Source: an uncultured bacterium | GTDB taxonomy: Bacteria > Bacillota > Clostridia > Lachnospirales > Lachnospiraceae | DNA length: 46,857 bases | Assembly: GCA_947063875.1 (NCBI GenBank) | Contig: CAMSTY010000025.1 | Coordinates: 1-46,857, forward strand | Direction: 5' to 3' | Shown here: positions 35,550-38,721 of the stretch, one piece after another | Layout of the letters: each line of letters begins with the position of its first letter | Position numbering within the stretch: the stretch's first letter is position 1 | Notes under the pieces: generated by a model | Database searches by the model: none | Told to the model about the DNA's origin: nothing | The model's input: only the letters and a program-made list of their open reading frames with translations | Position numbers and translations under genes: made by a program

Positions 35550-35714
35550 AAACACCTCCACAAATTTCGCAAATTTTGCTTTATTATATATATAACGCAG
35601 AACTCCCGGAAATATGACAGATTTTTTAACGGATAAGGCAGAAAAGGGGAAAAGATGGGATTTTATATTGACAAATAACGAGTTATAGGGTAAGATGTGG
35701 AAGGTAGAAGAAAT

Positions 35715-35787
<73 letters not shown>

Positions 35788-35813
35788 TTTATTTTTGTGT
35801 GATAATTTCTTAA

Positions 35814-35842
35814 TTGAAATATGGTCAGTTGTATGATATAGT
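35814..35842 (+). promoter_or_regulatory. Promoter of the rmlA operon
   Basis: TTGAAA (35814-35819), 17 bp, TATAGT (35837-35842) with an upstream TGA. Transcription would begin near 35849, a few bases inside the left arm of the long palindrome. Confidence 0.7.
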
Positions 35843-36012
35843 ACAGACAAATGCAAAAACAAGCGTTTTATGGAAAATAGATGAGAACAGGGAGAAAACA
35901 AATGAAAGGGATTATTCTTGCCGGAGGTTCCGGCAAGAATAATCCCTTTCATTTGTTTTCTCCCTGTTCTCATCTATTTTCCATAAAACGCTTGTTTTTG
36001 CATTTGTCTGTA
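35842..36012. repeat. Perfect 84-bp inverted repeat with a 3-nt spacer
   Basis: Left arm 35842-35925 and right arm 35929-36012 are exact reverse complements; the spacer is GGT. I compared them base by base. The centre is CCGGA-GGT-TCCGG, a short inverted repeat that normal rmlA genes would carry by chance at codons for A-G-G-S-G. The left arm is the natural rmlA leader, ribosome-binding site and first codons; the right arm is its mirror copy in place of the next stretch of rmlA. Transcribed, it gives an 84-bp hairpin holding the start codon. Confidence 0.95.
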
Positions 36013-36786
36013 TTGATGAATGCCGGTATTCGGGACATCCTGATTATTTCCACGCCAGAGGATACGCCGCGGTTTGAGGAATTGCTCAGTGACGGGCATC
36101 AGTTCGGGGTAGAATTGCACTATGCCGTTCAGCCGAGTCCGGATGGGCTGGCACAGGCGTTTGTTATCGGAGCTGATTTTATTGGCGGGGATTCGGTGGC
36201 AATGATTTTGGGAGACAATATATTCCATGGGCAGGGACTGAAGAAACGCCTCCGTGCCGCGGCGGCAAAGGAAAAGGGCGCTACGGTTTTCGGATATTAT
36301 GTGGATGATCCGGAGCGTTTTGGCATTGTGGAGTTTGATGAGAGCGGAAAGGCCGTTTCCATTGAGGAGAAGCCGGAGAAACCAAAGTCCAATTATTGTG
36401 TGACAGGTCTGTATTTTTATGATAACCGGGTCGTGGGGTATGCGAGAAATCTTAAGCCGTCGGCGCGGGGGGAACTGGAGATTACGGATTTGAACCGGAT
36501 TTATCTGGAGAACGGAGAATTGGATGTGACGCTGCTGGGGCAGGGTTTCACCTGGCTGGATACGGGGACGCACGAGTCTTTGGTAGAGGCAACTAATTTC
36601 GTTAAGACAATTGAGACCCATCAGCACCGCAAGATTGCCTGTCTGGAGGAGATTGCCTGGCTGAATGGCTGGATTAGCCGGGAACAGGTGCTGGAGACTT
36701 ACGAGACGCTGAAGAAAAACCAGTACGGACAGTACCTGAAAGATGTGTTAGATGGTAAATATATTGATAGGATTCATAATCTGTAG
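35902..36786 (+). CDS. rfbA: Glucose-1-phosphate thymidylyltransferase with scrambled N-terminus, probably inactive
   Basis: A 294-residue RmlA that would convert glucose-1-phosphate and dTTP to dTDP-glucose, first step of dTDP-rhamnose synthesis. From [16 protein letters not shown] onward it is normal: [58 protein letters not shown]. After [11 protein letters not shown], however, the family's T-R-L-x-P-L-T and S-K-Q-L-L-P segments are replaced by 23 unrelated residues ([20 protein letters not shown] and three more) encoded by the mirror arm. The Arg and Lys needed for nucleotide binding are gone. The frame stays open because about 26 codons were exchanged for 23. GGGAG precedes ATG 35902, but that site lies in the hairpin. 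Confidence 0.88.
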
Positions 36787-36819: not shown

Positions 36820-37842
36820 ATGAAGATTATCGTAACTGGCGGCGCCGGGTTTATCGGTGGAAACTTTGTGCATTATATGGTTGAAAAATATCCGGAGGAC
36901 ATGATTATCAATCTGGATGCCCTTACTTATGCGGGGAATCTGGAGACTTTAAAACCGGTGGAGGACAAGCAGAATTACTGTTTTGCCAAAGGGGATATTG
37001 CGGACCGGGAATTTGTTTTTGAATTGTTTGAGAAGGAAAAACCGGATGTGGTAGTGAACTTTGCTGCCGAGAGCCATGTAGACCGTTCGATTACGGACCC
37101 GGGGATCTTTGTGAGGACCAATGTGATGGGGACTACGACGCTTCTGGATGCCTGCAAGGAGTTTGGCATTAAACGTTTCCATCAGGTATCTACAGATGAG
37201 GTATATGGAGATTTGCCGTTGGACCGGCCGGATCTGTTTTTTACGGAGGAGACTCCGCTGCATACTTCCAGCCCGTATTCTTCGTCAAAGGCCAGTGCAG
37301 ATCTTTTTGTGATGGCATATCACCGGACTTTTGAGATTCCGGTTTCAATATCCCGGTGTTCCAACAACTATGGCCCTTATCAGTTTCCGGAAAAGCTGAT
37401 TCCTTTGATGATCAGCCGGGCGCTGGCGGACGGAGAACTTCCGGTGTATGGCAATGGCGCGAACGTCCGCGATTGGCTTCATGTGTATGACCATTGTCAG
37501 GCGATTGATCTGATTATCCGTAAAGGTGAGGATGGTTGTGTTTACAATATCGGGGGACATAACGAGAGGACAAACCTGGAGGTGGTAAAGACAATTCTGA
37601 GGGTATTGGACAAGCCGGAGAGCCTGATTAAGTATGTAACCGACCGCCCGGGGCATGATATGCGTTATGCGATTGATCCGGCGAAGCTGGAGAGTGAACT
37701 GGGGTGGGAGCCGGTATATAATTTTGATACCGGAATTGAGCAGACCATACGATGGTATCTGGAGAACCGTGAGTGGTGGGAGCACATCATCAGCGGGGAA
37801 TACAGCAACTATTTTCAGAAGATGTACGGACAGCGGCTGTAA
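36820..37842 (+). CDS. rfbB: dTDP-glucose 4,6-dehydratase
   Basis: A 340-residue short-chain dehydrogenase-type enzyme that makes dTDP-4-keto-6-deoxyglucose, second step to dTDP-rhamnose. It has the NAD loop TGGAGFIGGNFVHYM, INLDALTYAGNLETL, FAAESHVDRSI, the dehydratase signature STDEVYGDL with Asp-Glu acid/base residues, and the catalytic YSSSKASAD. Substrate-side motifs NNYGPYQFPEKLIP and GNGANVRDWLHVYDHC are intact. It follows rfbA by about 33 nt and appears fully functional, in contrast to that gene. Confidence 0.96.
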   Translation: MKIIVTGGAGFIGGNFVHYMVEKYPEDMIINLDALTYAGNLETLKPVEDKQNYCFAKGDIADREFVFELFEKEKPDVVVNFAAESHVDRSITDPGIFVRTNVMGTTTLLDACKEFGIKRFHQVSTDEVYGDLPLDRPDLFFTEETPLHTSSPYSSSKASADLFVMAYHRTFEIPVSISRCSNNYGPYQFPEKLIPLMISRALADGELPVYGNGANVRDWLHVYDHCQAIDLIIRKGEDGCVYNIGGHNERTNLEVVKTILRVLDKPESLIKYVTDRPGHDMRYAIDPAKLESELGWEPVYNFDTGIEQTIRWYLENREWWEHIISGEYSNYFQKMYGQRL

Positions 37843-37866: not shown

Positions 37867-38721
37867 ATGAGCATGAAAGTGTTGGTGACCGGAGCCAAGG
37901 GGCAGCTTGGCATGGATTTGATGAAGGAATTGCAGCGGCAGGGACTGGAAGGGATCGGCGTGGATGTTGAGGAGATGGATGTCACGGATGCCGAAGCCTG
38001 CCGGCGTGTGATTTCCCAGGCGGGGATTGATGCTGTTATTCACTGTGCTGCATATACTGCAGTAGATGCAGCGGAGGATCAGGTGGAACTTTGCCGGAAG
38101 ATCAATGCGGATGGTACCCGCAACGTGGCAGATGCCTGCCGTGAGGCGGGAGTGAAGCTGATGTATATCAGCACAGACTATGTCTTTGACGGGGAAGGAA
38201 CGCGCCCATGGGAGCCGGACGACGCACGGGCGCCCTTGAATGTATATGGCCAGACGAAATATGAAGGCGAACTGGCTATTGAGGAATTGCTGGAGGATTA
38301 TTTTATCGTTCGCATTGCCTGGGTATTCGGGGTGGCAGGGAAGAATTTTATTAAGACTATGCTGCGTCTGGGAAAAGAGAAGGGAGCCGTCAGTGTGGTA
38401 ATGGATCAGGTTGGTTCTCCGACCTATACCTATGACCTGGCACGGCTGCTGACGGATATGATTCAGACAGAACATTATGGCCGCTATCACGCAACCAATG
38501 AGGGTGAGTGCAGCTGGTATGAGTTTGCCTGTGAGATATTCCGCCAGGCGGGCATGGATGAGGTGAAGGTGACTCCGGTTACCAGCGAGATGTTTGCAGC
38601 CAAGGCGAAGCGGCCGGCAAACAGCCGGATGAATCGGGAAAAACTGGCTGAGAAGGGTTTTGAACCGCTGCCTGCATGGCAGGATGCGCTTGGGCGTTTT
38701 CTGAAAGCGATTGGATATTAA
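37867..38721 (+). CDS. rfbD: dTDP-4-dehydrorhamnose reductase
   Basis: A 284-residue NAD(P)H-dependent reductase, last step to dTDP-L-rhamnose. Motifs: TGAKGQLGMDLMKEL, DAVIHCAAYTAVDAAED, ISTDYVFDGEG, the catalytic YGQTKYEGE, and DQVGSPTYTYDLARLL. AGGAG precedes ATG 37867 at 9 nt; an in-frame ATG at 37873 is possible. It is 24 nt after rfbB. The 3,5-epimerase gene rfbC that normally belongs to this set is absent from the window, so it must be elsewhere or the pathway is incomplete. Confidence 0.95.
   Translation: MSMKVLVTGAKGQLGMDLMKELQRQGLEGIGVDVEEMDVTDAEACRRVISQAGIDAVIHCAAYTAVDAAEDQVELCRKINADGTRNVADACREAGVKLMYISTDYVFDGEGTRPWEPDDARAPLNVYGQTKYEGELAIEELLEDYFIVRIAWVFGVAGKNFIKTMLRLGKEKGAVSVVMDQVGSPTYTYDLARLLTDMIQTEHYGRYHATNEGECSWYEFACEIFRQAGMDEVKVTPVTSEMFAAKAKRPANSRMNREKLAEKGFEPLPAWQDALGRFLKAIGY

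Follow-up and report, generated by a model that had tools for sequence, protein, structure and literature searches.

A perfect palindrome with 84-nt arms over the start of rmlA in a Lachnospiraceae draft genome: a likely library or assembly artefact, or possibly a recent template switch

The stretch analysed here (the window, 46,857 nucleotides) is the complete contig C25 of a Lachnospiraceae draft genome (G000; 3,485,877 bases in 111 contigs, 92% complete). On its forward strand, a tRNA-Phe (GAA) gene identified by ARAGORN (35714..35788) lies upstream of rmlA, an open frame of 294 aa for glucose-1-phosphate thymidylyltransferase (35902..36786), and the same tRNA neighbours the gene in the relatives G021, G023 and G012. 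Between the two, a consensus scan located a probable rmlA promoter on the forward strand (TTGAAA-17-TATAGT with TG before the -10 box; 35814..35842). The scan returned 2 matches versus 1.3 expected in shuffles, and TGATATAGTACA of the promoter is conserved in G021, G023, G012 and G010. From this predicted promoter, transcription of rmlA would start at about 35849. The gene is followed by rmlB (36820..37842, TIGR01181) and rmlD (37867..38721, TIGR01214), both forward-strand open frames above their family cut-offs, and then by glmM.

The beginning of rmlA is covered by a perfect inverted repeat (35842-36012), whose 84-nt arms are complementary at 84/84 positions. The left arm (35842..35925, forward strand) and the right arm (35929..36012, reverse strand) are separated in the inverted-repeat comparison by the 3-nt spacer GGT (35926..35928). 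Pairing stops at the arm ends: the flanking bases 35841 (G) and 36013 (T) are unpaired, and 7/30 positions pair over the next 30 bases outward. With spacers of at most 60 nt, the runner-up perfect inverted repeat in the window has 19-nt arms. Folded as RNA, the palindrome gives a single uninterrupted hairpin with a predicted energy of -145.7 kcal/mol, compared with a mean of -33.6 (s.d. 4.1) for shuffled sequences. Because the next inverted repeat in the window is so much shorter and the RNA fold lies far below the shuffled mean, a chance origin is excluded. Our own inverted-repeat scan bears out the arms and spacer reported in a preliminary description of this DNA, and the fold agrees with its claim that the rmlA start codon sits within a predicted RNA hairpin.

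The native state of the locus was read from relatives. G021, the best match to the window among 60 relatives searched (83% over the query), shares the tRNA-Phe, promoter, leader and start codon with the window and then has the usual RmlA N-terminal codons. The left arm, consisting of the leader and codons 1-8 of rmlA, is therefore native. An inverted copy of it, the right arm, stands in place of native rmlA codons, as had been proposed. The unambiguous copied part is 35936-36003, the reverse complement of 35851-35918. Measured against G021, 26 native codons have been exchanged for 23 copied ones with the reading frame kept, which likewise matches the preliminary description.

The exchange removes the nucleotide-binding signature of RmlA (GG-GTR-----K), a loss that had also been claimed: the T and R that follow GGSG are changed or absent, as are another 19 conserved positions. 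In an alignment of 100 distinct relatives' proteins (103 of 105 loci yielded a protein), the window's RmlA departs at 21 of the 190 columns conserved at 97% or more, and all 21 are inside the event. The signature is intact at 108/109 relative loci, a count that includes a few genes twice because they came from two collections; the sole exception, L032, is a tRNA-only match. Among the best 80 of the listed matches, the named relatives with the closest RmlA are mostly Lachnospiraceae, along with other gut and rumen bacteria. The palindromic protein still matches TIGR01207 (415.4 bits; cut-off, 360.65); from established knowledge of the enzyme family, we presume it to be dead.

Outside the event, rmlA shows no decay. 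Its dN/dS versus G021 is 0.034/1.04, which resembles rmlB (0.023/1.12), glmM (0.040/1.30) and leuA (0.021/1.16) and is lower than rmlD (0.072/0.99). Because this remainder is undecayed, the event would be either very recent or absent from the cell. A second copy of rmlA as a backup was considered and rejected: none was found in the draft, where the other protein matches are distant nucleotidyltransferases only.

Short homologies mark both junctions of the copy. At the centre lies a natural inverted repeat, TGCCGGA-GGT-TCCGGCA (35919..35935), the putative place of the first switch, and the 7 nt after its spacer (TCCGGCA, 35929-35935) are common to the native G021 sequence and the copy, in agreement with the natural repeat described earlier. 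At the far end, TTGTCTGT (36004..36011, forward strand) belongs to the native G021 sequence and, at the same time, matches the reverse complement of the G021 leader. A return microhomology had been anticipated here and is present with 8 nt, but its letters had been given as TGTCTGTA. Within 300 nt of the G021 centre, no other 8-mer is in register (within 10 nt), two more 8-mers common to the native G021 sequence and its mirror being out of register; 106/2000 shuffled leaders contain an in-register 8-mer. The hairpin strength of the native G021 sequence is unremarkable (z -0.73). Together, the 7-nt centre repeat and the 8-nt return microhomology make a double template switch a well-supported geometry for the palindrome, judged from the junction sequences. 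A 3' end would fold back at the central repeat, copy some 68-84 nt lying upstream on its own strand and return to native rmlA at TTGTCTGT.

The draft contains more palindromes of this kind. A sample of G000 made up of stretches of 400,000, 395,843, 400,000 and 761,945 bases and the window, 2,004,645 bases of 3.49 Mb, held three long perfect palindromes with arms of 84, 81 and 77 nt; the first two stretches had none and the later ones two. The palindrome with 77-nt arms and a 3-nt spacer is located at the end of a malonate decarboxylase gamma gene (C12:22179-22335, equivalent to L201 2179-2335), and comparison with G021, G012 and G018 indicates that its right arm is native and its left arm the copy. 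The one with 81-nt arms and a 23-nt spacer (C30:17023-17207; L264 17023-17207) falls in the C-terminus of an MsbA-like ABC half-transporter and truncates it; the gene is normal in G016, G021, G022 and G023. All three palindromes alter a gene that is normal in aligned relatives and replace native sequence nearly in register, with inserted minus replaced lengths of -9, +4 and +1 nt (the last 0 against G021). Return homologies are 8 nt for the window event and about 4 and 7 nt for the others, and centre homologies versus relatives are 7 nt for the window event and 0 and 2-3 nt for the others. Going by these junctions, no natural primer repeat like that of the window event is apparent at the other two palindromes.

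These arms form a class apart in length and in perfection. With spacers of at most 60 nt, the next perfect arm in the 2,004,645 bases is 29 nt, and no arms of 30-76 nt occur. A mismatch-tolerant scan of 60-nt inner arms scored the three palindromes at 60/60 and the next best at 47/60, and it detected no half-decayed long palindromes in the sampled part of G000. In 1,091,794 bases from relatives (about 25 kb counted twice), the longest perfect arm with a spacer of at most 60 nt is 26 nt and the best 60-nt arm 45/60; the absence of long palindromes there is weak evidence, since about 1.6 would be expected at 1.5 per Mb (Poisson probability about 0.2). Counting the three, perfect arms of at least 14 nt number 67 in the 2.00 Mb of G000 versus 24 in 0.55 Mb from G021 and six other relatives, with no excess in G000. 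For three exponential lengths with a mean of 80, a range of 7 or less has P = 0.007, in a test chosen after seeing the data, and, with ambiguous junction bases counted by hand, the three events are all compatible with one single copied length in the range 73-77 nt.

How the draft was assembled bears on these regularities. Among 47 contig ends, two pairs (C26/C17 and C16/C18) have exact 55-nt overlaps, presumably the mark of a SPAdes-type de Bruijn graph with k = 55, which suggests that the draft is a k=55 short-read graph assembly in which the members of each pair are neighbours. On balance, we favour a library or assembly artefact as the probable source of the palindromes: the switch would have arisen in vitro during library preparation, or been promoted to the consensus by the short-read graph assembler, without being fixed in the chromosome, and the actual strain probably carries an ordinary rmlA. 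We reason here from general background on how assemblers treat parallel graph paths. With k=55, any arm of more than 55 nt would share one graph path with its own mirror image, and a rare fold-back path could borrow the coverage of the true arm and displace a native path of similar length; candidate sources of such double-switch molecules are library chemistry at short inverted repeats and rare cells. Shared arm coverage would account for a minimum arm length, near-equal lengths, perfection, recurrence and no decay. In keeping with this, the events recur at three loci of one draft, all are perfect with no ageing copies, and their arms cluster at 77-84 nt above the empty range. Each alters a gene normal in relatives while the rest of RmlA is undecayed, and inserted and replaced lengths are close, as if parallel paths of similar length had been swapped. 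The 55-nt overlaps and the presence of sbcD with an sbcC-like gene point the same way, and fold-back chimeras at short inverted repeats are a library artefact documented in PMC10908179. The artefact reading meets resistance at the junctions: neither is native, and at 7 and 8 nt (some shorter elsewhere) their homologies are far below 55, so molecules carrying both switches must have existed. Double-switch chimeras should be rare and outvoted under good coverage. In vitro, chimeras with a single fold-back would be expected more often, and the sampled stretches contained no palindromes of that type. Moreover, the borrowing of coverage is a step that we infer, the absence of long palindromes from relatives counts for little, and near-equal lengths with junction homology are also what a polymerase in vivo could produce. 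Insertion of one read or one k-mer of constant length would be a simpler scheme; its k-mer form fails because the fitted copied length is 73-77 nt and the contig-end overlap 55 nt, and we found no direct precedent in the literature for palindromic gap-fill misassembly. The preliminary description had offered a recent event and an artefact as alternatives; both stand, and the two further palindromes shift weight toward the artefact.

The second most likely reading, though less probable than an artefact, is that the sequenced strain genuinely mutated by template switching, very recently and in the manner of a quasipalindrome mutation, only with far more sequence copied than usual. It would have knocked out rmlA and hidden its start codon in a hairpin. 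The 7- and 8-nt homologies at centre and return suit it, as does the status of TTGTCTGT as the only in-register 8-mer near the centre against its frequency in shuffled leaders; we also reason that double switching is needed in vivo and not in vitro. The reading frame is kept, and template switches in great apes copy up to 128 nt (PMC7954356). Yet their median there is 12 nt, and a randomly switching polymerase would be expected to make mostly short copies, whereas in this genome three long events are all perfect, none older, with arms of nearly one length, no intermediate lengths at short spacing and no excess of short palindromes. An in vivo mutator with a broad length range is accordingly rejected on the lack of excess among perfect arms of at least 14 nt. 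Every event alters a gene, and while the draft has no second rmlA path, as a real mutation would have it, it also offers no other rmlA. That all three are real, the outcome of a recent burst of fold-back switching with a nearly fixed copied length in an SbcCD-bearing cell, is improbable. Such a burst would imply a mutational process gated by length, whether through a polymerase, a single-strand gap or a reverse transcriptase; it may be new, as no such fold-back process was found described in the literature examined. The preliminary description had called palindromes of this size unstable in cells with SbcCD, and the machinery does seem to be there: G000 has sbcD above the profile cut-off, and adjoining it is a 1295-aa open frame that matches both ends of the SbcC profile below the cut-off, a model that exceeds its cut-off in only 1/14 control genomes. 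Loss of SbcCD as the reason for stability was rejected on these grounds, and the presence of the genes argues to some degree against a real mutation. The claimed instability itself is less secure, since recombination-proficient E. coli with SbcCD is reported to tolerate a 246-bp interrupted palindrome, a 460-bp perfect one being lethal (PMC4245961); the 246-bp palindrome is cleaved and then repaired, according to PMC3315005. Neither case matches the 171 bp with a 3-nt spacer found here, and the presence of SbcCD is, in our analysis, compatible with a real mutation. Readings other than artefact or chromosomal mutation are, taken jointly, very improbable. In an RNA-templated variant, the strand would have been copied on rmlA mRNA up to the transcript's 5' end, where copying ran off. 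The unambiguous copy does end at leader position 35851, beside the predicted transcription start, the use of nascent transcripts has been proposed for yeast quasipalindrome mutations (PMC3820800), and the genome has a single reported RVT_1 match, a retron-type reverse transcriptase of the RT_Ec107-like type (L185 1330-2364, in G000:C26). Against this, complementarity runs 7 nt upstream of the predicted start into the -10 box, where the homology already exists in G021 DNA, and of the other two events, one is at the end of a gene and the other within coding sequence; we hold this variant to be highly improbable. A programmed or reversible rmlA switch, or an invertible element, is the most doubtful of all. 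The palindrome does sit over promoter-proximal sequence and the start codon, but its 3-nt spacer leaves no segment to invert, and a search with the lost rmlA segment of G021 found no copy in G000 (92% complete), although its counterpart was found in 4/4 relatives. The earlier suggestion of an off-state that can revert falls with this, and a reversible or invertible state was rejected. The idea that other species have a hot spot at the start of rmlA was also rejected: a degenerate pattern for the fold-back at codons LAGGS, which did not cover every codon choice, matched 2/397 family genomes, namely the window's own and G220, there in a frame without the RmlA motif.

Several known systems resemble the palindromes in part. 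Quasipalindrome template-switch mutation, studied in E. coli thyA and lacZ reporters, yeast and phage T4, involves the same fold-back, self-copying and return to the template, and yields the same product, a perfect inverted repeat (PMC7202029). The E. coli events use this mechanism over much shorter distances; classical events improve an existing near-palindrome, the reporter in that source being 18 bp, whereas here the copying began from 7 nt and extended over 68-84 nt, and three loci in a single draft are affected. Short-range template switches in animals, in the four-point model, show the same reverse-complement insertion with a net change in length and likewise leave a new perfect inverted repeat (PMC7954356, PMC8794818); the copied lengths reported for great apes contrast with arms of 77-84 nt and no short excess here. 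Fold-back chimeric reads from libraries contain the same inverted copies at short inverted repeats (PMC10908179), but these and whole-genome-amplification chimeras are artefact reads, and here a consensus contig carries two switches. The coding palindromes of Nematomorpha mitochondria are also long perfect inverted repeats in protein genes (PMC6649704); that source reports read mapping across them and conserved protein encoded by each arm, while here the second arm replaces conserved protein.

If the palindromes are artefacts, genes in public drafts may have been overwritten by mirror copies unnoticed, still in frame and still passing their family profiles; searching for perfect palindromes whose arms exceed the assembly k would flag such genes. 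Should the window event be real, it would offer, with its two siblings, a natural system in which to study the formation and survival of such palindromes, and to our knowledge the double template switch would be very long by bacterial standards and would have occurred in a cell with SbcCD.

At wider spacing (partners within 2 kb), G000 also contains arms of 30-38 nt, mostly belonging to a repeat family. Seven places among the listed rows (L168 10645-10874, L202 9886-10112, L178 7091-7307 and 1772-1987, L040 14695-14910, L263 17747-17957 and L038 2070-2281) have inverted repeats of 29-38 nt, in each case at a distance of 153-154 nt. These pairs look like a family of small repeated elements (about 210-230 bp) with inverted ends.
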